Virus record (IMG/VR): IMGVR_UViG_3300025913_000318
Coordinates: 1 to 24,200 of that record
DNA length: 24,200 nucleotides
Strand: one strand, 5' to 3'
DNA from: a virus
Position numbers and translations under genes: made by a program. Below are positions 3,289 to 16,929 of this stretch, in pieces; the stretch's first letter is position 1, and every line of letters starts with the position of its first letter. The notes under the pieces were generated by a model. That model did not search any database, was not told the DNA's origin, and saw nothing but the letters and a program-made list of their open reading frames with translations.

Positions 3289-3332
3289 GGCGCTGGTCTT
3301 TCAACCCGCATAGTTGCAGCCAGCGCCTTTTT
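3289..3332 (+). terminator. Rho-independent terminator of the plus-strand cassette
   Basis: GGCGCTGG (3289-3296) pairs perfectly with CCAGCGCC (3320-3327) across a 23-nt loop, and a T5 run (3328-3332) follows directly. Read on the minus strand the hairpin is followed by CTTCTCC, without a T run, so it works mainly for plus-strand transcripts. The T run overlaps the stop codon of the convergent spike gene (3331-3333), so the cassette and spike meet end to end with no spare DNA. Confidence 0.85.
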
Positions 3333-5157
3333 ACTGGATTTCCTCAACAATCCACTGCGCCGGAGTCACCTGATCCGTATTGGCAACATTGAATGTGGCC
3401 TTAATCACAATCGCGTTCGCTGTGTTTTCCGCTGGGGCTATTCCAGCGACTATCGTGCTAGCTGTTCCAGTTGGCGTGAATTTACCGCTTGCGCGCTGGG
3501 CTGTGGTTGAAGCTGAATTATTCATCACAACTAATTCCATGCAACCGTTTCCAGTGACAGCAGAAGATGTGTTGATTGCCGCCGTTCCTCCAAAAGAGAG
3601 TTTGTAAGTTACGCTAGCTGTTCCGGTGCCATGCACATAGAAGCACGTGATCCTGACACCCTTTCCGGCTGCGAGTGTTCCCGCTGGCAGAGTGTATGTG
3701 TAAAGAGTTTTGTCGGTTCCATCTCCAGTAATCGCTCCTAATGTGCCTTGGGCGTTAAGTAGGGTTGTGTTATTTAAACTGTTGGCCTGAGTCAACGTGG
3801 AACCATAAAGAGCGGTGCTCCCCGCTGAAAATGGGCTGTTGAATCCGACTAGCTTGTTTGTTCCTGTTCCCGCGTCATTCAGTCCAGCGCTTGTGAAATT
3901 TACAAACCTGTTTCCTGTAATCCAGTAGCGGTCTGAAGTTCCGGCAACAATAAGAATGTTTTGGAACGGCTGATTAGCGGAACTCAATATTGTGGTGAAA
4001 TCATTGTCTTGAATGGCGAAGTCCGTCATGTTCGCCGCAACTATGATGGAGTTGGAACCGCCATTTGTCGCAACGCTCGTATCGGCAATCCGGTTTCCGG
4101 TGATCCTGATATTTGTTCCACCAGAAAGAATGATGCCTTCATTCTGAAGGCCCACGAGTTTATTGTCCCTGATAGTGAGCGCCTTTACTCCGCTCACGTC
4201 ATAGGCAACTTTGGAGGTGGCGCACTGGCATCCCTCAAAGTTAATGAGAATTCCCTGCGTGATGACAACGGCCTCTTTCGTAGTTCCTGATTCAAACGTG
4301 CAATCGGTAAACCTGATCCACTGCGGATCATTGCTCGTGCTGGTATTGTGGATCATCACGCATTGCGAATCACCCAAGCCCACCTGTACAAACTGGCAGT
4401 TCTCAAAATCAATCGTGTCGCAACCGCTATCCAAATCCACCATGAAACCGGAGAATGCGGCAGAGCCTTCAATGTTTACGTTATGGAATACCTCGCTCGT
4501 TACGGTTCCGCTGGCTACCCCGCCAAGCAGAATTCCAGTATGCCAGCTACCGCTCGAAGCGATTCCAAAGCCCATCGTTATATCAATGAACTTGTTTCCA
4601 GCCGAAGCTCCTGACAGGGAATCAATGATCGAAATGCCGTTGAAGGTTTTGTCAATTGTTATGTTTCCGAACGTCCCATTGCCACCCTTACAGCGGATTC
4701 CTGCTCCTCCTGTACGCGCAACGGAAGAAACTAGACTAACCCCATTTACAGAATTGAAATTAGCCGTAGTCTGGATAATATCGGCTGTTCCTGAGCTTGT
4801 CTGTAAAACCGTTGTTACCGGCCCCAATCCAACAATAGAGCTGCCATCGGCGGTCATGTTGATGCCGGGAGAACCTGCTAACTGCAAAGTCACATTTCCC
4901 AAGCGCAACTGGCACGCTTTATTCAGCGTGATTGTTGATGCAGATGTCTGCGCACCCGTTAAGGCTGTGGCATCGACAATGCCGCCCGGATTGCAAAGAT
5001 AGATAAAGGATTGGAGAAAGTTTCCATGTTCTAGTCCAAGCCATTCCAATATCCAAGAGCGACGAAAAATAACGTGGTCATCAGGCGAACAAAGACCAAG
5101 CTTGGCGCATACTTTGTTGCGCAAAAAGTAATAGATAATCAGGAATAACACTGTCAT
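3331..5157 (-). CDS. Tail spike, beta-helix and C-terminal part (split from its N-terminal domain)
   Basis: The 608 aa product carries a right-handed parallel beta-helix of the pectate-lyase/tail-spike type. From residue 58 on, repeated short strands and turns are visible (NFNSVNGVSLVSS, GNGTFGNITIDKTFNGISI, FENCQFVQV, FTDCTFESG, LTIRDNKLVG, IRITGNRIAD, WITGNRFVNFT). The last 130 residues (from about 480, TLYTYTLPAGTLAAGKGVRI to the end WIVEEIQ) look like the C-terminal trimerising beta domain common in such spikes. The first 55 residues are foreign to the fold: MTVLFLIIYYFLRNKVCAKL is a hydrophobic segment, and spike homology begins at NPGGIVDATALTGAQTSAST. The preceding gene ends in exactly the region (FSGADMGAKVIAAIGDL) that normally joins to it. 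ATG 5157 has GGAG 8 nt upstream and abuts the upstream stop (TAAATG), so separate translation is possible. Enzymatic activity on host glycans is inferred from the fold only. Confidence 0.8.
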   Translation of the reverse strand: MTVLFLIIYYFLRNKVCAKLGLCSPDDHVIFRRSWILEWLGLEHGNFLQSFIYLCNPGGIVDATALTGAQTSASTITLNKACQLRLGNVTLQLAGSPGINMTADGSSIVGLGPVTTVLQTSSGTADIIQTTANFNSVNGVSLVSSVARTGGAGIRCKGGNGTFGNITIDKTFNGISIIDSLSGASAGNKFIDITMGFGIASSGSWHTGILLGGVASGTVTSEVFHNVNIEGSAAFSGFMVDLDSGCDTIDFENCQFVQVGLGDSQCVMIHNTSTSNDPQWIRFTDCTFESGTTKEAVVITQGILINFEGCQCATSKVAYDVSGVKALTIRDNKLVGLQNEGIILSGGTNIRITGNRIADTSVATNGGSNSIIVAANMTDFAIQDNDFTTILSSANQPFQNILIVAGTSDRYWITGNRFVNFTSAGLNDAGTGTNKLVGFNSPFSAGSTALYGSTLTQANSLNNTTLLNAQGTLGAITGDGTDKTLYTYTLPAGTLAAGKGVRITCFYVHGTGTASVTYKLSFGGTAAINTSSAVTGNGCMELVVMNNSASTTAQRASGKFTPTGTASTIVAGIAPAENTANAIVIKATFNVANTDQVTPAQWIVEEIQ

Positions 5158-5163
5158 TTAAAG
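4995..5163 (-). other. 165-bp block separating the two halves of the tail spike
   Basis: On the minus strand the upstream half reads GAC CTT TAA ATG and the downstream half resumes at TAT CTT TGC AAT CCG GGC. The same CTTT occurs at 5163-5160 and 4998-4995, exactly 165 nt (55 codons) apart. Removing one unit gives ...AAIGDL-CNPGGIVDATALTG..., which restores the usual start of a beta-helix spike. The block has a stop as its first in-frame codon and is otherwise open in that frame (54 codons). It contains a 10-bp palindrome CCAAGCTTGG and an arm pairing with the upstream coding sequence. It may be an insertion, a very small intron, a translational bypass element or a real gene boundary; the sequence alone does not decide. 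Confidence 0.6.
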
Positions 5164-5190
5164 GTCTCCAATCGCAGCTATTACTTTTGC
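5121..5190. repeat. Long inverted repeat around the spike stop codon
   Basis: GCAAAAAGTAATAG (5121-5134) is the reverse complement of CTATTACTTTTGC (5178-5190) except for one extra A. In RNA of the spike gene this is a 13-bp stem with one bulged base and a 43-nt loop, with the stop/start TAAATG in the loop. The first arm encodes AKVIA at the end of the N-terminal half; the second arm is inside the 165-bp block. A 13-bp match at this distance is very unlikely by chance. Confidence 0.8.
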
Positions 5191-5664
5191 TCCCATATCC
5201 GCGCCTGAGAACTGATCGGCATAACGGACTTGCTCAAAGCGATTGATGAAAAGATTAGTCCCTGAGGGCTGGACTATCGTTTGGCTTCCGCTGGGCAACT
5301 GCATTACTGCATTGGCAAAGCTGGCTCCTGTGGTCGTTGGAACCATTGCGCTCAAATCTGCCGATGCCCCAGAGATTGACCAATACCCTAAGTCCTGTAT
5401 CAGCAGCAGGCCGTTAGAGCCAAAAAGTTGCGCTGAGTAGACTGTCCCGCTTGGAGTCAATTCATCATTGAACCAGATCGCCTGAGAGGTAATCTTGCCC
5501 GATGAATCCAGAGCAAGGAAAAGAGGCTGGTTTGTTACCTGCCCACCGCCGCTGGTAATCTCGGCATTCTGTGAAAGTTGAAGGCGCAAGAATCCATTGG
5601 CAACGACCGTGCCGGATGAGTTCTGAAAACCTACTGAGGTTGAAATGAGCTTACTGGGAGCCAA
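5158..5664 (-). CDS. Tail spike N-terminal (virion-binding) part
   Basis: The 168 aa product starts at TTG 5664, preceded by AAGGA at a 6-nt spacing and abutting the upstream stop (TAATTG). Residues 1-110 look like a beta-sandwich virion-attachment domain (GTVYSAQLFGSNGLLLIQDLGYWSISG, about 72-98). Residues 140-168 (INRFEQVRYADQFSGADMGAKVIAAIGDL) are the linker that in many spikes leads straight into a beta-helix: 'yaDqFsGaDxGaKi.aAIadL'. The protein stops right after that motif, at TAA 5160-5158, where homologues continue with a GGxVDA segment. That segment occurs 55 codons further on in the next gene. Product may therefore be an isolated head-binding domain, or the first half of a protein joined by RNA splicing or ribosome bypassing. 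Confidence 0.75.
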   Translation of the reverse strand: MAPSKLISTSVGFQNSSGTVVANGFLRLQLSQNAEITSGGGQVTNQPLFLALDSSGKITSQAIWFNDELTPSGTVYSAQLFGSNGLLLIQDLGYWSISGASADLSAMVPTTTGASFANAVMQLPSGSQTIVQPSGTNLFINRFEQVRYADQFSGADMGAKVIAAIGDL

Positions 5665-7072: not shown

Positions 7073-7522
7073 TTAGGTAAGCAATCCTGATCCTGTGGGC
7101 ATCGCAAACAACGTCAAGCTGAAAGTAAAGCTCGGCGTTGTGGCCGCGATGGTGTATTTGATCTTCATGTGAAGAACATCAACCACGGTCGGCTTGGCCA
7201 GGGTTCCGCCCGTATCCGCGGCAGCGCCTTCTGCCCCGACTTCGCCAATGCCCAGACCAAGGCGAACGGTCAGGTAGTTGGTTCCGGCAGCGGTGATTTG
7301 CGTATGCCGCCACGGAATGTCAACATAGGTTGTTCCGCCATCAATCGAGGTTTGGTAAACCACGTCCATGGTCGGGGTTGTGCCTGAAACCGCCGTAGTG
7401 TTCAGGATGAAGGTATAGGTATCGGCCATGCCGATAGAAAACGCAGCACTGGAGCCGGTCGCGGTAACAGCAGCAGACGAAACCAGAGTTTTGATTGTTG
7501 GTTGCTGAATGCTTCTCGGCAT
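7073..7522 (-). CDS. Decoration-like virion protein (paralogue of the 15,419-15,868 product)
   Basis: The 149 aa product is rich in Thr, Ser, Ala and Gly with a beta-sandwich look. It shares two segments with the protein beside the terminase gene: VSGTTPTMDVVYQTS against ASGTTPTMNVYVQDV, and KYTIAATTPSFTFSLTL against KWVIAATTPSFTWSLTA. Both proteins have the same length. Location immediately after the capsid gene and another beta-rich protein supports a capsid decoration or head-fibre role, as inference. ATG 7522 overlaps the upstream stop (TAATG) and has GAGGT about 6 nt upstream. Confidence 0.65.
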   Translation of the reverse strand: MPRSIQQPTIKTLVSSAAVTATGSSAAFSIGMADTYTFILNTTAVSGTTPTMDVVYQTSIDGGTTYVDIPWRHTQITAAGTNYLTVRLGLGIGEVGAEGAAADTGGTLAKPTVVDVLHMKIKYTIAATTPSFTFSLTLFAMPTGSGLLT

Positions 7523-8088: not shown

Positions 8089-9045
8089 CTAAACGAGGCT
8101 TGAATCCGCAATCACAATGCGATAGCGGAATACGGTTGAGTCCAGGGTCTTTGCGACGGTTACGAACCAGTACGAAACATACTGGCCGATGTTGCCTTCA
8201 GGATCAGCAGCAGACGGGCCACCAGGAACGATGTTCACCTTGAAACGCTCATTCCGTGGATCGACTACCTTGCTGGGGCCTTTGCCGGAAATGTCAATCA
8301 TTCCGACTGCTCCCTGTCCGACAATGTAAGTCGAGTACAGGACTGAAGGCGCTGTGCCTGAAGTGGCGACGTTGGTTGATTCCATGAAGCGAACGCCGCC
8401 AATCTTGCCAATTTCGGCATTCAGGAGCGGAGTGTTGTTGGTGTACTTCAGAACGTCGATGAATCCGCCGGCAGTGTTGTCCGAGGTCAAATCGTAGGAG
8501 ATGAATGGATGGATAATTCCAACCATGTCTCCACCTTCACGCGGACGAACATCGCGGCCTGTGAGCTGGAATTTGTTGGCGCGAGCATCCGCAGCAGAGA
8601 ACGATGTTCCAATCGTGTTGACTGTCGGGCTGCTGTTGGAATCGAATTCCGTCCGGTAAAGCGTGTCAACCGTCTTGGCCGCACGGTAGGACATGTCATC
8701 CACCATCTTTTCAGTGGTAGGAGAAATGTCCGTAGTGAGCAGAAGTTCCGATGCCGAAGTGAAATCGGAATACTGCTCAACCGTGGCAGAGACGGTGCGA
8801 GACGTTTGAACGAACGGAGTGCCTACAACGCCTTCAGCCGATGGCGTGGTGTTGGCACCAGGAAGGTCAAAGCGGTACATCTGCGTGGTCTTACCGGAAC
8901 CAGCAGGAATTGTTCTTGGGTCACAGACAGTTGCAAAGTAGAACTTCTGCTCCAAGCGATCCAAACTCACGCGGTCGTAATAGACAGTCGGGTAATGCGC
9001 AAGAGTCGGGGTTTGGGTAGTATTTGCCGCAGGCGAAATACTCAC
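8089..9045 (-). CDS. Major capsid protein, N4-gp56 family
   Basis: The 318 aa product matches the pattern of the N4-gp56 HK97-fold capsid family: YYDRVSLDRLEQKFYF (22-37), then a conserved PAGSGKTTQMYRFDLPG segment (47-63) that is structural and not a Walker motif, EQYSDFTSASELLLTTDISP (about 90-109), IHPFISYDLTSDNTAGGFIDVLKY, and the family signature EIGKIGGVRFMESTN (about 210-224). The start is GTG 9045 with GGAG 8 nt upstream. It stands at the head of a transcript, behind a strong promoter (9,197-9,226) and a 130-nt leader with two direct repeats. It forms the icosahedral shell. Confidence 0.9.
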   Translation of the reverse strand: MSISPAANTTQTPTLAHYPTVYYDRVSLDRLEQKFYFATVCDPRTIPAGSGKTTQMYRFDLPGANTTPSAEGVVGTPFVQTSRTVSATVEQYSDFTSASELLLTTDISPTTEKMVDDMSYRAAKTVDTLYRTEFDSNSSPTVNTIGTSFSAADARANKFQLTGRDVRPREGGDMVGIIHPFISYDLTSDNTAGGFIDVLKYTNNTPLLNAEIGKIGGVRFMESTNVATSGTAPSVLYSTYIVGQGAVGMIDISGKGPSKVVDPRNERFKVNIVPGGPSAADPEGNIGQYVSYWFVTVAKTLDSTVFRYRIVIADSSLV

Positions 9046-9196: not shown

Positions 9197-9226
9197 ATTA
9201 AACTCATACCAGGAAATGAATGTCAA
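9197..9226 (-). promoter_or_regulatory. Sigma70-type promoter for the major capsid gene
   Basis: On the minus strand TTGACA (9226-9221, perfect -35) and TTTAAT (9202-9197, 5 of 6 for the -10) are separated by 18 bp. The predicted start of transcription is near 9190, giving a leader of about 145 nt before the capsid GTG. The -35 overlaps the stop codon of the upstream methyltransferase gene. It would add extra transcription to the structural genes that follow. Confidence 0.65.
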
Positions 9227-9726
9227 GACTGAAATATTGCCAAGCCTTGAATTGTGTCCACTTCCCAAATTGCTTTCCATGGCCTGAGGAGCTTAATAGG
9301 CTCATACTGAGGCCGCTTAGAATCATGTAAAACCACTACACCACCGGGAGCTAGGTTAAGGGCTGCTACCTCGGCAACGCGATCACCGGATGAGTCGATA
9401 AAGGCTAAATCAACATTCTCTGCCTTGGAACACAATTCAAGCCCTGTACACAGATCAGCTCCCCACCAAATTCCATCGCTGTTGACAACGCCAGCGAATT
9501 CAGCAGCTTCAGTAAGTTTTTTAGCGTCTGTGTCGCATGTCCAAAGAAATCCCATGCCATTCTCTTTGGCTGCCTTCGCCATTGCCTTTGTCGCCCCGCC
9601 CTTATATGTTCCGGTTTCCAGAATAACCTTGGGCTTTAGCAACCTGACCAGCGCATACAGTAAGTCATACACCTCATACTCAGAGGCCATTTCGTCATCT
9701 GCGGTAAGAAGTCCGTATCTAATCAA
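9223..9726 (-). CDS. Class I SAM-dependent methyltransferase
   Basis: The 167 aa product has the Rossmann-type order of small-molecule methyltransferases (Methyltransf_24 type). VILETGTYKGGAT (34-46) is the glycine-rich SAM loop, CDTDAKKL (64-71) the acidic end of strand 2, VDLAFIDSSGDR (105-116) a later strand with an Asp, and GGVVVLHDSKR (128-138) the following strand. The start is TTG 9726, overlapping the stop of the glycosyltransferase (TTGA), so the two are co-translated. Substrate is unknown; the pairing with a glycosyltransferase suggests a sugar or a glycosylated product. At 167 aa it is compact but all core motifs are present. Confidence 0.8.
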   Translation of the reverse strand: MIRYGLLTADDEMASEYEVYDLLYALVRLLKPKVILETGTYKGGATKAMAKAAKENGMGFLWTCDTDAKKLTEAAEFAGVVNSDGIWWGADLCTGLELCSKAENVDLAFIDSSGDRVAEVAALNLAPGGVVVLHDSKRPQYEPIKLLRPWKAIWEVDTIQGLAIFQS

Positions 9727-10316
9727 ACCATCACCCCGCCCATGCCCAAGTAGGCTATCTGCGTTTTTCCTGAGGCGTAATTGTCCGGCCAGACAGTTGA
9801 GAGTCCATCACCGTAATGGTTCCGTCTGACATCGCGCATACGGCCAACCTTAAAGCCTTTGGCTCTGATCTGCTGCCCTTGTGCCGAGCCATCCCATGTT
9901 TGGCCGTTGAATGCCGGGATTTCTAAAATACCTTTACGCACAACATTGATTCCGCCTGCCGTTGTCGTTTCGTAAATCTCATCCGGCCCATAGGGAGCAC
10001 AGTAGTCCTCAGTTCCCAAGATTGCATATTCGGGATACTTATGCATAAGAGCTTCGCAGCGTTCCAAAAACTTTTTTCCTAGCGGCATACAGTCGTCATC
10101 GGCAACAATGTAGAACGGCGCTCTGGACCAATTTTCTGCCCGCTTTCTTCTAATTTGCTGAAACTCTCGCCCTGACATACCTTCATCTGGCCTGACAACT
10201 ACAAGGCCGCTGCCCGGAGTGGCATTTTGAATCTGTTTCCACATCATCAGGCATGGCTTGGCAATCGCTTCCCTGAGTGGATCATTGGGCATGGTGCAGT
10301 AGAAAACGTCAATCAT
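9723..10316 (-). CDS. GT-A-like glycosyltransferase
   Basis: ATG 10316 (MIDVFYCTMPNDPLREAI) is chosen because it overlaps the upstream stop (ATGA); this gives 197 aa. FYIVADDDCMPLGKKFLERC (about 68-87) contains the acidic DxD-type motif DDD that binds the metal and nucleotide sugar in GT-A enzymes. Downstream, GGINVVRKGILEIPAFNG and QTWDGSAQGQQIRAKGFKVGRMRDV (about 138-162) fit the acceptor side, and a His (RRNHYGDG) lies where many GT-A enzymes have a metal-binding His. It lacks membrane spans. It lies between scaffold and capsid genes, next to the methyltransferase. The acceptor (capsid protein, host wall or lipopolysaccharide) is not known. Confidence 0.7.
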   Translation of the reverse strand: MIDVFYCTMPNDPLREAIAKPCLMMWKQIQNATPGSGLVVVRPDEGMSGREFQQIRRKRAENWSRAPFYIVADDDCMPLGKKFLERCEALMHKYPEYAILGTEDYCAPYGPDEIYETTTAGGINVVRKGILEIPAFNGQTWDGSAQGQQIRAKGFKVGRMRDVRRNHYGDGLSTVWPDNYASGKTQIAYLGMGGVMV

Positions 10317-11200
10317 ACATACCCAAGCCTCTGCGCTTCTGCCCACTTCGCCTTGATCTGCTCAGGAGTATCGGCCATTGTCGCTACAAGGTTCTCTGGC
10401 AACGCTCCTACGGCTACAGGCGCTCTCCCTGATGGCGGGGGCGGAGGCGGTGCTTGTACTCTCATCGGCGCGGCTCCAGCAGGCTTAGGCTCGTAAACCT
10501 TATTCATAATGCAGTAAGCGTGTGCCTGTCTCAACATCTGTACCTGCTGAGGGCGTTCGGCGGAGTCAAACGCCTGTCCCATGCCGGACTGAGTAATCAC
10601 CTCAATCAGCTTGTCTGAGTTTTCCTTTGTCGGATTGAAGTCCGGTTGCGCTGCCTGAAACTGCAAAGTCACGGCCTGTGAAGCGTAATCGGTAGTATTT
10701 TCCTGAATGTGGCCTAACGCTCTCTGCATAGTGGCCGCATCGGGATAGCCAAGAGTTTTGGCAATCAGGTTGGCCGTGTAGGTCGCTACAGCCGCTTCTT
10801 CTTCATTGGCGAAGGGAGATTTTGGCGGTTCAACTACTTGAGGTGGAGGCGGGGGAGTCTGCACCTGATTCTTTGCCCACATCTTAGTGTTGACGTGAGC
10901 CTGCCCGACCTTTGCCAACACTTCAGCGGCGGTGCCTTCAAACTTCTCCCCGGTCAGGTATTCAACCTGAAACTTTCCTTCGCCAAGGTCGCGGGTGACT
11001 ACCGGATTCTCCGCGGTGGGAGTGACTACCGCGGGAGGCGCTACAGCCGCGGGAGCAGCAAACGTGCCATCGGGATTCCGCGGCTGCCCCGGTGTTTCAG
11101 TCGCTTGACTCGCTACGTTCGCGGCGGCAATCGCCGGAGCTGGAGTATTGATGTCGATTGGCGGTGCAGGATTAGACGGTGTATTCGGTGTCGTACTCAT
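10313..11200 (-). CDS. Candidate scaffolding protein
   Basis: The 295 aa product (start MSTTPNTPSN at ATG 11200; a TTG at 11224 would add 8 residues) has a Pro/Ala-rich disordered N-terminus, a short folded region (GEGKFQVEYLTGEKFEGTAAEVLAKVGQAHVNTKMWAKNQ, about 73-112 in two parts), poly-Pro linkers (QTPPPPPQ, APPPPPPSG), a helical middle and a helical C-terminal tail (DTPEQIKAKWAEAQRLGYV). An intrinsically disordered, helical protein between portal and major capsid genes is the usual profile of a scaffold. It overlaps the upstream gene by 29 nt. No catalytic motif is seen. Confidence 0.6.
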   Translation of the reverse strand: MSTTPNTPSNPAPPIDINTPAPAIAAANVASQATETPGQPRNPDGTFAAPAAVAPPAVVTPTAENPVVTRDLGEGKFQVEYLTGEKFEGTAAEVLAKVGQAHVNTKMWAKNQVQTPPPPPQVVEPPKSPFANEEEAAVATYTANLIAKTLGYPDAATMQRALGHIQENTTDYASQAVTLQFQAAQPDFNPTKENSDKLIEVITQSGMGQAFDSAERPQQVQMLRQAHAYCIMNKVYEPKPAGAAPMRVQAPPPPPPSGRAPVAVGALPENLVATMADTPEQIKAKWAEAQRLGYV

Positions 11201-11495
11201 ATTCTGGTCTGTTCTCCCTGGCAAGACGGTCTAAGTCCTGCCGCATGGCTAAAGTGATTTCTTCCAAGCCTTTATTGGCTGAATCAATGAAGTTTTCTAT
11301 TTCGCGTTTCAAGCAAAGCCTCTGCTGATAACGCAGGCTCAAATCTGCCCTTGCAGTGGATGAAAGCGAGCCAATCATCTGCTCATGCGCCTCATCTACC
11401 CAGCCGTCAATTAAGGCTTTGAGATCGGCAAAGGCTCCAGACTTTGACATCTGGACAATCTCTTGGAACCTTGATAGTTCGGCGTGATCGGTCAT
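11172..11495 (-). CDS. Small helical protein after the portal, unknown function
   Basis: The 107 aa product is charged and almost entirely helical (SRFQEIVQMSKSGAFADLKALIDG, then RYQQRLCLKREIENFIDSANKGLEEITLAMRQDLDRLAREN), so a helical bundle or coiled coil is likely. The start ATG overlaps the portal stop (ATGA 11492-11495), and its end overlaps the scaffold candidate. Such small helical proteins are common between portal and scaffold, but I cannot identify it. Confidence 0.6.
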   Translation of the reverse strand: MTDHAELSRFQEIVQMSKSGAFADLKALIDGWVDEAHEQMIGSLSSTARADLSLRYQQRLCLKREIENFIDSANKGLEEITLAMRQDLDRLARENRPEYEYDTEYTV

Positions 11496-13618
11496 TTCGT
11501 TTTCGCTGGCAACTGCTTCGGCGCAACTCGCGCCTTGAGTTCTTCAGGATGCTCCATGCTGTACAGCCCACCAAACAGAGCATGTGTAGCTTCTGGCGTG
11601 AATACTTTGGCAATGAGCTGCTTGATGATTCCTGATTCGTCTTTCTCTTGAGCAATGCCAAGCTGAGCCTGAAGTCTAGAATCCTGCAACTGCTGCTTCA
11701 ACTGCATTTCGGCCATCTTTTCAGCATTCAACTGCTGCATTTCCTCTGGTGATAATTGCCGCGTCAAGGTCATGGCCTGAATATCAAGCGTCTGCGAAAT
11801 CAGGATGTCGATGTTTTTCCAGTCTGGAGTGATTCCAGCTTGATTCATCTGCTGCACGAGGCCCGGATTGCCATAAGTCTGCAAAATCGTATTCAGTCCG
11901 CCCGATTGCAGAGCGGTTTTGGTTCTCATCTTCTGTGAGGCCAGAACCTTGAATCGCACATCGGCATTCAAAACGTCCAAGGGATCTAATTGGATCTGTT
12001 GAGCATCAGGCCCAAGAATTTCCAGTAATTGAGAGGGGTCGAGATAGATTTTGTTGAGTCTCAAAAGCAGATAAAGAAAAGGCTCTAACGCCTGATCTTC
12101 GAGATTCGCTACCTGGTAGCCGATTCTTCCGCTGGCTGCTGCCTGTTTTGCTCCCACACCTGTAGCAGTGCGCGAAGAGGAATCGCCGCCTTCCGTAGCA
12201 ACTCCATATGCTGCTGCATCAGTGTTTCCGGTAAGTTTCTGGACTCGCTGTTCACTGGCATTTACCTCAGCAAACGCAGCCGGGTTGACTGCTCCCATCT
12301 GCATTCTGACAACATCTTCCGTAGGAGATTCGTTTACTTCCCAGCTTGCGCCCGGATGGAATCTCTTTCCGCTGGTTCCCATCATGGCCCCGCGCTTGCG
12401 GATGATGGGCGGGTGCAACAGGATCGTTAATTCATCAATCCTGTCATTCAGGATGTTCATTACCAACTTATGATCGCCCTCCACCAGATCGGGGATTGAA
12501 AAACCGTGGAACCTTCCCAGAAAATCAATGTAGAACACGTTAAGGTGAGGGATGATGCCATAAGGATTACACTCGTTTCTGAAAACCCATTCCCGGCCCA
12601 AAATCTCGACATGGCGATTCGGTCGCCAATAGCGAATCAATTCAATCTTCGCCAGTGCTGGATCGACTGATTTATCGGTATTCGGTTGGAATGAGTTGCC
12701 GCGATAAGATTCTTGAGTCTGCTTGGAAAAATCACCTTGAGTTGCAAATTTCTTGCTTGCCAACTCTTTCAACTGCGCATCGCTAGGAAGTTTAAATCCT
12801 GATTCTGGATTGCTGGCAATCGTTTTCAGTTCTTCTATTGTCAGCAGATGGCGTGTTGCTGTTCCTCTTGCCTCTTGGCAGGACGGCCCCGGCGTATCAG
12901 GATCAATGTAGAAATCCCGAATGTCGATGTTCTGCGCCATTGGCCGCGATACCACACGCTTATCCTCGCGCACGGATGAAACCATGCGGAGTTTCCCGCT
13001 TGGCGCTTGAATCTGGCCTAATACCGGATGGTTTATTTCTGAGGTGTCAGCGACGGCGCGGCGGTCGTAAATCTTCCGATTGACCTCATACATTATTTGT
13101 GACAGTTCAATGATGCCAGCGCCATAAGTGAGAGCTGATTTGTTAGCACGGCGGAAAATCTCACGGCCTGTAATGAATGTGTCCGGCTTGCCGATGGTGC
13201 GAAGCTGCGAAGCAAGAAGATTTTTAACTGCCATTGCCTGAGCAAGCGTTGTTCCTGGTTCCGGACTTACATCAAAAGGCGTTTCATCGGAGAAAATCTG
13301 GTCAATGAGTCGGCTTTGCAGGACTTCGATTTCCTGAAGCGCAATGAATATTGGGATGGAAGACCGTTCGACTTTGGTTCCTTCCCAGAATTTCTTCTGC
13401 ACCCATCCGGTAATCAGTCTCTCTGCTTCCCTGAATTTGCGGTCATGGTTGTAAGCACGGTACTGCTCCCATGCCTGAAAATCTCGCACGGCAACTTTCT
13501 TCGCAAAATCGTCAGTCCATTCCTGCGGATCGGTGACAATCGTGTTCTTCTCTGTCTCGGTTAAGGCAAGAGAGGAAGGGTTGTTTGAATTATCGGGTAC
13601 TTGAGAGACTGTTGCCAT
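11492..13618 (-). CDS. Portal protein
   Basis: The 708 aa product is the expected size for the large podoviral portal, which forms the 12-mer DNA gate at one capsid vertex. Supporting segments are IFIALQEIEVLQSRLIDQIF (89-108; early helices), FRRANKSALTYGAGIIELSQ (about 160-179), NIDIRDFYIDPDTPGPSCQEA (the wing region), HKLVMNILNDRIDELTILLHPP (about 396-417), GDSSSRTATGVGAKQAAASGRIGYQVANLEDQAL and a Gln/Met-rich helical C-terminal tail (QQLNAEKMAEMQLKQQLQDS) that suits a barrel. It sits directly after the terminase with a TAAATG junction and no Shine-Dalgarno site. Confidence 0.85.
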   Translation of the reverse strand: MATVSQVPDNSNNPSSLALTETEKNTIVTDPQEWTDDFAKKVAVRDFQAWEQYRAYNHDRKFREAERLITGWVQKKFWEGTKVERSSIPIFIALQEIEVLQSRLIDQIFSDETPFDVSPEPGTTLAQAMAVKNLLASQLRTIGKPDTFITGREIFRRANKSALTYGAGIIELSQIMYEVNRKIYDRRAVADTSEINHPVLGQIQAPSGKLRMVSSVREDKRVVSRPMAQNIDIRDFYIDPDTPGPSCQEARGTATRHLLTIEELKTIASNPESGFKLPSDAQLKELASKKFATQGDFSKQTQESYRGNSFQPNTDKSVDPALAKIELIRYWRPNRHVEILGREWVFRNECNPYGIIPHLNVFYIDFLGRFHGFSIPDLVEGDHKLVMNILNDRIDELTILLHPPIIRKRGAMMGTSGKRFHPGASWEVNESPTEDVVRMQMGAVNPAAFAEVNASEQRVQKLTGNTDAAAYGVATEGGDSSSRTATGVGAKQAAASGRIGYQVANLEDQALEPFLYLLLRLNKIYLDPSQLLEILGPDAQQIQLDPLDVLNADVRFKVLASQKMRTKTALQSGGLNTILQTYGNPGLVQQMNQAGITPDWKNIDILISQTLDIQAMTLTRQLSPEEMQQLNAEKMAEMQLKQQLQDSRLQAQLGIAQEKDESGIIKQLIAKVFTPEATHALFGGLYSMEHPEELKARVAPKQLPAKTK

Positions 13619-15418
13619 TTACCAAGGTTGATACACGGAGTTGTATTCCGGGTCTTCTGCTTCCATGCCATTCAAAGCGGCTTGGCTCAGATTCTCTACT
13701 GGAATTCCGCGCCACTCTCTTACTTGTCCATCGTAATCCGGGCCTAAATCAATCTCAGACTTTGGACGGCCTTCAACGTCTGCTGTTATTCCTTCTCTTG
13801 ACTGCAAAGCATCCGCAACCGTGTCCAAAATGTCATCATGATTGAATCTAGGGAAATAGAGAGCTTCTAATTCGATCTGGTTTCTAACGTCTGCCTGGAT
13901 GTCAGCACAGAAAACGAACGCGCCATTTTTCCAGTACGGCTGGGTGCCGCGAATTCTGTGGACTTTAGAAGTTCGATTATCTCGCTGAAGTTCCATGACC
14001 GGCAGATATGTTCCTCTTTTGGCCATAGCTTTTCGCAAAAAGGGCAATAGAACTCGCGCATGGGCTTCTTTTTCTATCTTGATAAACTGGATACGCGGTT
14101 GACGGAGAAAAAGCGCGAACAGTTTTTCAATAACCTGGTCTGGACTGAATCGACCCCACTCAATCGTGTCGAAGTAGCATCTCCCATCAGTACCCCAGCC
14201 GTGCAGGTTGATGACTGTATAATCGGTATCTCCCTTTGCCTGAGTTTCCATGCCTGCAAGGTCAACCGTGACATTCCACGTAATTCGAGCCGCATAGTTG
14301 TCTAATTCCTTGCGTGGTATCCAGCGGATTTCTGATTTGTCGGTAATCAGGCCGTCTTTGTCCTGCAAGGGCTTCAAGAGATATTGCGGATAAAGAACTC
14401 CTGGCCCCAGAGCGGGATCTTTCTCGATCTTGCGAAGGTGTCTGAGTCCGATTCTTTCCTTCCACCAGACGTGAGCATTTTCAAGTTTGGCAACTTCTTC
14501 CTGCATCCGCTCAATGTCTTCTGCGATTCCTTTTTCTTCGGCAGCTTCTAGGCGCTCAAGCGCAGCGGAGCATGTTGGCCAATCATCACACGCTGGAATG
14601 TAGAGCAAGTCCCATTCGCGCTTGTGTTCTGGTTTTTGTATTTCTTCGGAATATATGGTCCAGTGGGCATCGGAAAAGCTGTAAATCGTCCCCGTGAGAT
14701 TGAGCCATCCATGTCCCGGCGGTAGCGGGTTGGTTTCGATCAAAGGCCAAAGGCTTGCGATAAATTTCTTTGTCTGCTCGATTGATCCTGGCGTTCTGGT
14801 GTTCTGATCTTCTACGCCGTCATCAATGTCCCCAACGTCATAGTGACCGCCAGCGACGGATGAATCAGCGGAGAGCACGCGCAACGTAGGCTCTTTAATT
14901 CCCGGCTTTCTCCGGCATGGAACTGTAAATTGCTCATCATTGCCAAAATCTTCAGTCTTTCCGGCCTCTGTCAACTTGGGGCAGAACTCAGGGAATAGCC
15001 AACGGAACAGTTCATTTTTGGTGAATTGCTCTTTCGTGCCTCTCAGAAAATCCTTTGATCGCGAGAGTTGGGCAGATCCTTGAAAAATTCTTATGTCTGG
15101 ATAGTTGATAATCCATTGAATCTTTTCGGCTTGCGTGATAATGCTGGTTTTTAGTCCGCCGCGAGTGACAAGCCTTAACTTCTTACGCTTGCCCGGTAAC
15201 TCCCACATCGAAACCAACGGATTGTAACCAGCGCCGTCTTTCAGTGTAACTTGCTTCTTTGGCTCCGTGCCGCCTAAAAACTTTTGGCAGTGGTTGTAAA
15301 TGCGACCATGTACCGCTTTCGACACATCCCTGTAACCTAAGACCCCGCAAAGGTATCTCAGGTCAGTCCGGCACCGTTGCCGTCTAGCCTTCCAGTCTTC
15401 TATGTCGAACTTAGGCAT
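13619..15418 (-). CDS. terL: Terminase large subunit
   Basis: The 599 aa product is the DNA-packaging motor ATPase and nuclease. LVTRGGLKTS (83-92) is the Walker A loop, in the variant form with Gly-Leu-Lys-Thr seen in some phages, and DVGDIDDG (194-201) is Walker B. The C-terminal RNase H-like nuclease shows TVDLAG (384-389), KGDTDYT (395-401) and HDDILDTVADAL (527-538), which supply the acidic metal ligands. A charged helical insert (about 283-315) lies between the domains. It follows a decoration-like gene and precedes the portal, both through TAAATG junctions. No small terminase is adjacent; a candidate lies at 17,978-18,394. Confidence 0.9.
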   Translation of the reverse strand: MPKFDIEDWKARRQRCRTDLRYLCGVLGYRDVSKAVHGRIYNHCQKFLGGTEPKKQVTLKDGAGYNPLVSMWELPGKRKKLRLVTRGGLKTSIITQAEKIQWIINYPDIRIFQGSAQLSRSKDFLRGTKEQFTKNELFRWLFPEFCPKLTEAGKTEDFGNDEQFTVPCRRKPGIKEPTLRVLSADSSVAGGHYDVGDIDDGVEDQNTRTPGSIEQTKKFIASLWPLIETNPLPPGHGWLNLTGTIYSFSDAHWTIYSEEIQKPEHKREWDLLYIPACDDWPTCSAALERLEAAEEKGIAEDIERMQEEVAKLENAHVWWKERIGLRHLRKIEKDPALGPGVLYPQYLLKPLQDKDGLITDKSEIRWIPRKELDNYAARITWNVTVDLAGMETQAKGDTDYTVINLHGWGTDGRCYFDTIEWGRFSPDQVIEKLFALFLRQPRIQFIKIEKEAHARVLLPFLRKAMAKRGTYLPVMELQRDNRTSKVHRIRGTQPYWKNGAFVFCADIQADVRNQIELEALYFPRFNHDDILDTVADALQSREGITADVEGRPKSEIDLGPDYDGQVREWRGIPVENLSQAALNGMEAEDPEYNSVYQPW

Positions 15419-15868
15419 TTACGGGATGAGCTGAGCGGTCAAAGACCAAGTGAAACTGGGGGTAGTTGCCGCGATCACCCACTTGACGCGCCACAATAGC
15501 CCCACAGGGCCAACCCTGACGGTTCCTGCGGTCAAACTACCATCCGCGAGCACATTGCCAGCAGAAACCCCACCAAAGGCCGCACGCACTACCCAATCAC
15601 CTGTAGACGTTACCTGTGTGAATGAAGCAAAATCATCGAATACTGCCGTGCCTGTCGGCGGATTAAGGATCAAGTCTGTCGCTCCGGCGGGTTGGAGCAC
15701 GTCCTGCACGTAAACATTCATCGTTGGCGTAGTTCCAGACGCGGCTGAGACGTGCAAATGGAGAATTGCGCCGTTATAGCCTGCGGGAATGTTCAAAGTG
15801 CTGCCATTGCTTGAACTGGTGGACGTGGTTACAGGCTGAAGGACTATTCTTTTTGGATTTAAAATCAT
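15419..15868 (-). CDS. Decoration-like virion protein beside the terminase
   Basis: The 149 aa product is a paralogue of the 7,073-7,522 protein. They share the internal motif SGTTPTM and the C-terminal IAATTPSFTxSLTxxxxP, and have identical length. It is a beta-rich, Ser/Thr/Gly/Val chain without charged helices. ATG 15868 has GGAG 8 nt upstream. Genes of this type near capsid genes usually encode decoration proteins, but here the copy precedes the terminase, which is unusual. Function stays inferred. Confidence 0.6.
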   Translation of the reverse strand: MILNPKRIVLQPVTTSTSSSNGSTLNIPAGYNGAILHLHVSAASGTTPTMNVYVQDVLQPAGATDLILNPPTGTAVFDDFASFTQVTSTGDWVVRAAFGGVSAGNVLADGSLTAGTVRVGPVGLLWRVKWVIAATTPSFTWSLTAQLIP

Positions 15869-15884: not shown

Positions 15885-16313
15885 TCAGAAAGTCACGATC
15901 TCGCAGCCACGGCGCTGGAGTTCTGCTTTAATTTCTGGCCACATATTTGAATGCCCTACGCCCATTGCTCTCTGGCCTGCGCTAAGCGGTTCTTTCGCTT
16001 CCTCGCTCCAATAAACAACTTCGCACGGCTTCCCTTGGGGATTATTCTTGAGCCATTTTCTCATTGCTCTCAAGGCAGTTACGCCTTCTATGACCCAATC
16101 GCCGGATTGTGCCATCCAGTCATCAGAAACAATTCGACTTTCTTCCGACCAATCGCCTTTGCCTATAAGAGAATCCGTATGCATAACATTGCCGCCCATC
16201 TTTAAGGCCAAGGTAGTCTTGCCGCTTCGCGGAATACCGCAAATAATTACCCTTTTAGTCATTGAATTGGGGATCATAGGGCAACCGAGATATTTCTTTA
16301 CCTGCTCAAGCAA
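15885..16313 (-). CDS. P-loop NTPase, small kinase-like
   Basis: The 142 aa product has a Walker A motif GIPRSGKTT (26-34) after a hydrophobic strand (RVIICG) and a further aromatic/acidic segment MHTDSLIGKGDWSEESR (44-60), the arrangement of adenylate-kinase-like or nucleoside/antibiotic kinases. A second hydrophobic strand, GDWVIEGVTALRAMRKWL (71-88), follows. Two starts are possible: TTG 16313 (overlapping the deacetylase stop) or ATG 16262 (MTKRVIICGIPRSG); neither has a clear Shine-Dalgarno site. A lid (arginine-rich) region is short. Substrate is unknown. Confidence 0.7.
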   Translation of the reverse strand: MLEQVKKYLGCPMIPNSMTKRVIICGIPRSGKTTLALKMGGNVMHTDSLIGKGDWSEESRIVSDDWMAQSGDWVIEGVTALRAMRKWLKNNPQGKPCEVVYWSEEAKEPLSAGQRAMGVGHSNMWPEIKAELQRRGCEIVTF

Positions 16314-16929
16314 GTTCGCTTACCGTCACAAACTTTTTATTCGGCCACTTCTGGAGAATCATTTCCACCGCTTTGAGAGTATGCGAGCGATCCGCGCTTT
16401 TTTCCGGCGATCCATCATGCAAAAGCACGATTTCCCCTTTGTCGGTGTCCAGGTTCACCTTGGAAAATATGTCTTCGGCGGATTTAGCCGCCCAATCGCC
16501 TGATAACTGGCTCCACATTACGGTTTTAAGCCCAAAAATGTCAGCAGTTTTAGTGGCTCGATCAGGATTGTTGCCGTAAGGAGGTCGGAAGAGTTTTGGA
16601 AGTTGCCAAGTAGCGTTCTGAATGCGCTTACTACAGCTTTCTATCTCTATTTCAAGCTGCTGTTCCGAAATTGACCCTGCGGCAAAGTGGTTTTCCGTGT
16701 GATTGCCTATCTCATGTCCTAAACGGCTGATAATGTTCAAGATTTCAGGGTTCTCGGCAACCCATTTTCCCAGCACGAAGAAGGTAGCTTTAGCGTTGTA
16801 CTTTGCCAAAATAGGCAGTAACTCAACCGTCCAGCCACTAGGCCCATCATCAAACGTCAAGGCCACCTGCGAAGGATCGCTACCATGCGAAAGGATCAAA
16901 TCTTTAAATCTCTTCTTCTGTGCTAGCAA
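16306..16929 (-). CDS. Polysaccharide deacetylase (NodB / CE4 family)
   Basis: The 207 aa product contains all five NodB motifs: TFDDGP (25-30; the first Asp is the base, the second binds metal), HTENH (77-81; His ligands), RPPYG (115-119), the W139/D145-W146 region, and LLHDG (159-163). A metal-dependent N- or O-deacetylation of a glycan is expected. No signal peptide is seen, so it may be virion-borne, released at lysis, or act on cytoplasmic sugar. TTG 16929 overlaps the preceding gene by 26 nt; an alternative TTG at 16899 just after that gene's stop has a purine-rich stretch upstream and would give 197 aa. The target is not known. Confidence 0.85.
   Translation of the reverse strand: MLAQKKRFKDLILSHGSDPSQVALTFDDGPSGWTVELLPILAKYNAKATFFVLGKWVAENPEILNIISRLGHEIGNHTENHFAAGSISEQQLEIEIESCSKRIQNATWQLPKLFRPPYGNNPDRATKTADIFGLKTVMWSQLSGDWAAKSAEDIFSKVNLDTDKGEIVLLHDGSPEKSADRSHTLKAVEMILQKWPNKKFVTVSELA

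Follow-up and report, generated by a model that had tools for sequence, protein, structure and literature searches.

Some phages divide their receptor-binding apparatus between two proteins, one serving as the anchor and the other as the enzymatic or receptor part. In phage G7C (gp66/gp63.1) and in the KP32-type phages of Klebsiella, a T4gp10-like domain receives the second protein, which docks there through its conserved N-terminal peptide (PMC6872550). Where two genes abut, termination followed by reinitiation is an established mechanism of translation (PMC6728339, PMC10666635). Short blocks inside genes are known as well. In T4 gene 60 a stop directly follows a codon that is repeated at the point from which homology returns, and this 50-nt bypass system becomes less processive once the gap exceeds 56 nt (PMC11194080); the byp inserts of Magnusiomyces mitochondria are likewise short blocks within genes (PMC5009743). 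The locus described here shares one feature or another with each of these systems and differs from all of them.

The window we analysed is a whole linear IMG/VR virus record of 24,200 bp, a soil-type phage record. Genes for the terminase (13619-15418), an SU10-like portal protein (11492-13618) and the capsid (8089-9045) lie on its minus strand, as do the tail genes. Eight relatives were found by way of the capsid, several of them with the same gene order. Between the capsid and scaffold-like genes (9223-10346, minus strand) are ORFs that by eye appear methyltransferase-like and glycosyltransferase-like, and the ORF at 16306-16929 (minus strand) resembles a polysaccharide deacetylase, again by eye, with the motifs TFDDGPSGWT and RPPYG.

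In this genome the tail spike is encoded by two minus-strand ORFs. ORF1 (5158-5664, 168 aa) comprises the spike head or anchor module and a capping helix (YADQFSGADMGAKVIAAIGDL), and ends GDL-TAA. ORF2 (3331-5157, 608 aa) is open throughout and begins at the very next base after the ORF1 stop; homology to the spike returns exactly 55 codons further on. Read on the minus strand, the junction is ATT GGA GAC CTT (5163-5161) TAA (5160-5158) ATG (5157-5155), and the far side of the intervening block is TAT CTT (4998-4996) TGC (4995-4993) AAT CCG GGC GGC. The distance from CTT to CTT is exactly 165 nt, as the sequence-only reading had it, and the GGAG that it placed 8 nt before the ATG is present at 5169-5166; the junction proper occupies 5155-5169. 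After the 55-residue head encoded by the block, ORF2 continues with the resumed spike (3334-4992, NPGGIVDATALTGAQ...), consisting of a beta-helix and a C-terminal module of about 150 aa (3334-3774). Residues 271-428 of ORF2 give a weak NosD beta-helix match, under the curated cut-off, and the ORF2 structure model is strand-rich and of low confidence.

Comparison with homologues points to a single ancestral gene. ORF1 matches single-ORF receptor proteins of four syntenic relatives (L003, L004, L006 and L013) across their N-terminal ~130 aa, at 52-66% identity. In each of these the head module opens the receptor protein gene and always lies within one long ORF (605, 741, 406 and 393 aa). The C-terminal module of ORF2 is 42% identical to the 393-aa protein of L006 and 36% identical to the 406-aa protein of L013/G003; head and C-terminal modules are fused in one ORF in two syntenic relatives, G003 and G004. 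When the C-terminal part of the spike was used as a query, viral_contigs gave no match and the sole hit in genome_contigs was a weak one, to Legionella; a further search, across 398 genomes from the phylum of that Legionella locus, was empty and uninformative.

At the junction, a motif is interrupted. A search for a DNA pattern whose two halves could lie 0-30 nt apart found two viral loci, in each of which L and GG are separated by exactly three codons, and an alignment-based scan then brought more homologues. Eight distinct homologues from other viral contigs (L028, L029, L033 and L035-L039, with L034 left out as a duplicate of L033) align with the motif and run uninterrupted through the junction as ...GAKxxAAIxxL-Pxx-GGxVDA..., the spacing from L to GG being exactly three residues in every one. 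The window has the capping helix, the GGxVDA first-strand motif and the beta-helix of a phage tail spike. It reads ...AAIGDL, then 55 codons, then CNPGGIVDATALTGAQ..., and the canonical length returns when those 55 codons are taken away; hence 165 nt have been inserted in the loop between helix and strand. The suggestion that one spike gene was interrupted by a 165-nt block is borne out, and the homologues are continuous across GDL-NPGG. For an intact homologue, a local, single-sequence AlphaFold2 model was poor overall (the mean confidences of our structure models were 40.6 and 51.1), with one confident stretch at residues 21-40 (pLDDT ~82). In that stretch, a helix (residues 17-28) stops two residues short of the Leu, and GG marks the start of a strand (35-39). 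According to this model, the block lies in a surface loop that leads from the capping helix into the beta-helix at its first strand.

The block (TAA ... CTT, 4996-5160, minus strand) is unlike the gene that surrounds it. Its GC content is 39.4%, compared with 49-51% for the flanking parts of the spike, and the lowest-GC 165-nt segment of the spike begins at 4995, that is, on the block. By in-frame codon score the block ranks below every one of the phage's 84 real coding pieces. Block DNA has no relative among phages or plasmids, and the block protein gave one weak, chance-level match among phages (E 0.4) and none among viral contigs; searches with the block or the ORF2 head found no relative in Pfam or PHROGs and no convincing match in the fetched relatives. 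Given its low GC content, odd codon usage and lack of relatives, the block is taken to be a foreign or newly made piece. Its exact ends cannot be fixed, as CTTT occurs at both (5160-5163 and 4995-4998) and leaves the register free. A few flanking codons may have been replaced along with it, since the CNP that follows the block differs from the conserved Pxx. A coding origin in another frame was considered and rejected: no frame is spike-like, and the plus-strand frame with the best codon usage contains two stops.

These properties would also fit a random recent insertion that simply broke the spike gene, leaving ORF1 as a truncated anchor and ORF2 without a useful product, in a genome that is defective, in the minority or reliant on another receptor protein. 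The foreign composition and codon usage, the absence of relatives and the separation of the helix cap from the beta-helix all agree with such an event, and the 4-nt CTTT at both ends would fit a short target duplication or microhomology. However, the 553 downstream codons of ORF2 are intact, and the block is open, in frame and ATG-first, its junction having a Shine-Dalgarno (SD) sequence and the form usual for this genome. We consider gene breakage unlikely, although it is the main rival to the reading we prefer. A chimeric or erroneous metagenome assembly could also have placed the block: the record is a single metagenomic one, composition shifts at the block, and no collection searched holds a second copy. 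But two chimeric joins 165 nt apart would have had to keep both the frame and the exact homologous spacing, and we judge an assembly error to be quite improbable.

The form of the junction is habitual in this genome. The claim that TAAATG junctions are common here proved correct, there being five zero-gap boundaries of adjacent, co-directed stop and start in the window: that of the spike (5157/5158) and those at 1739/1740, 7072/7073, 13618/13619 and 15418/15419, which mostly have no SD. TAA/ATG junctions are also found in relatives L003-L007, the 1739/1740 type in L005, L006 and L007. The GGAG at the spike junction is owed to a Gly codon (GGA) in the window where all eight homologues carry Ala. 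On this strand ATG directly follows a stop triplet in 26 of 851 cases (3%), and 5.6% of shuffled blocks achieve a fully open frame like that of the block; the junction form, the open frame and the GGAG were noticed post hoc, and their numbers are guides rather than formal probabilities. An open block of exactly 55 in-frame codons, in a loop where a domain could be accommodated, might also be joined to both flanks by UAA readthrough, which would give a spike of 777 aa carrying 55 inserted residues in a loop. Against this, TAA is a normal stop that ends many genes in the window, other TAA/ATG boundaries included; the window has no tRNA gene and hence no suppressor tRNA; and the codon usage of the block is not coding-like. 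Readthrough therefore seems to us an improbable account. An intein was rejected on the grounds of the internal stop, the length of 55 aa (versus at least ~130 aa) and the lack of an HN-C end.

We also considered whether the block is removed at the level of decoding or RNA, by bypass over a long in-frame gap or by splicing of a miniature intron, to yield a continuous GDL-CNPGG spike; taken together, such routes seem very improbable. Programmed bypass as in T4 gene 60 had been proposed from the CTT that precedes the stop and recurs at the far side, together with a stem-loop around the stop, and the restoration of canonical length without the block is in keeping with it. The matching codon loses weight because CTT occurs four times in frame within the block. 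Folding around the stop and block is no better than that of shuffles (z -0.4 to -0.6), and no stem-loop stands out. What is present instead of a take-off hairpin is an imperfect inverted repeat (5121-5190, minus strand) whose arms, GCAAAAGTAATAG (5190-5178) and CTATTACTTTTTGC (5134-5121), bracket the SD, stop and start. It has 11 exact nt, extends to 13/14 with a bulge, and encloses a wide loop of ~43 nt. This level is reached by 6 of 500 shuffled blocks and 5 of 394 real segments (about 1%), a signal that, being post hoc, is suggestive; the repeat could serve coupling, bypass or nothing.

Other features of gene 60 are missing or altered. The gap of 165 nt is three times as long as the one in gene 60 and is in frame, and the block is an open frame with its own ATG and SD. 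No purine SD stands ~6 nt before the landing CTT, where the sequence is TCCTTTATCTAT. As to a nascent-peptide signal, ORF1 has no KKYK, but other such signals may be present. The joined product would carry Cys where eight of eight distinct homologues have Pro, and natural in-frame stop hopping is without a known case (PMC5009743). Like the block, the Magnusiomyces byp inserts are short and lie inside a gene; the window has a single block that keeps the frame and brings its own start codon and SD. Bypass thus has at best a slim chance of being correct. Splicing of a tiny intron at CTTT could account for the exact length relation and the short direct repeat. The block is nevertheless too short for group I or II introns, its folding energy is ordinary, and none of 4227 Rfam families matches it, even at E 5, so that a conserved ribozyme core was not found. 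Splicing is the least probable of the explanations considered.

The observations are best accommodated by the alternatives that the sequence-only reading itself had offered, namely that a small insertion took place and that the two ORFs make separate proteins. We propose, with a probability of roughly 0.5, that the insertion split one spike gene into two translationally coupled cistrons. Comparison with the homologues shows that a continuous tail spike gene gained a 165-nt AT-rich insertion in the loop between capping helix and first strand, and as this opens with TAA/ATG the reading frames show that the gene became two cistrons. ORF1 would then supply a virion-anchor module and ORF2 a beta-helix spike headed by 55 new residues. 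Since TAA/ATG junctions are habitual in this genome, ribosomes that end ORF1 probably restart directly at the abutting ATG, aided by the GGAG within the Gly-Asp codons, and the two proteins would meet non-covalently on the virion. The recurrent junction form, the 55 open codons, the GGAG created by the Gly codon and the ordinary nature of TAA all favour the split into two cistrons. On the other side, residues 1-55 of ORF2 may not be a selected protein, because the codon usage of the block is unlike that of all 84 coding pieces; this head has no known relative and a low-confidence model; once parted from the capping helix, the beta-helix would be expected to fold less well; and the split is seen in one genome only. 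A transmembrane role for the head was rejected, the best 19-residue hydropathy being 1.23, under the usual ~1.6.

Two coupled cistrons would resemble the G7C and KP32-type systems in placing the anchor and the enzymatic or receptor part on separate proteins; unlike in those phages, the cut falls within a motif of what was one spike, and no docking domain was recognised. The zero-gap TAA/ATG arrangement, common to several gene pairs of the window, is like that of other abutting genes subject to termination-reinitiation (PMC6728339, PMC10666635), whereas here the pair derives from one polypeptide. If both proteins work, a one-chain spike has been converted to an anchor and a separate spike by a single short loop insertion, which would represent a possible route to two-part receptor-binding systems; if they do not, what this metagenomic record contains is simply a receptor gene that has been disrupted. 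Peptides MTVLFLIIYYFLR.../SWILEWLGLEHGNFLQSF in virions would fit two proteins.

Elsewhere in the window, two 149-aa proteins of similar make-up are encoded on the minus strand at 7073-7522 and 15419-15868, and further copies of the former are found in relatives L003 and L006. The two proteins likely represent a small duplicated family of structural proteins.
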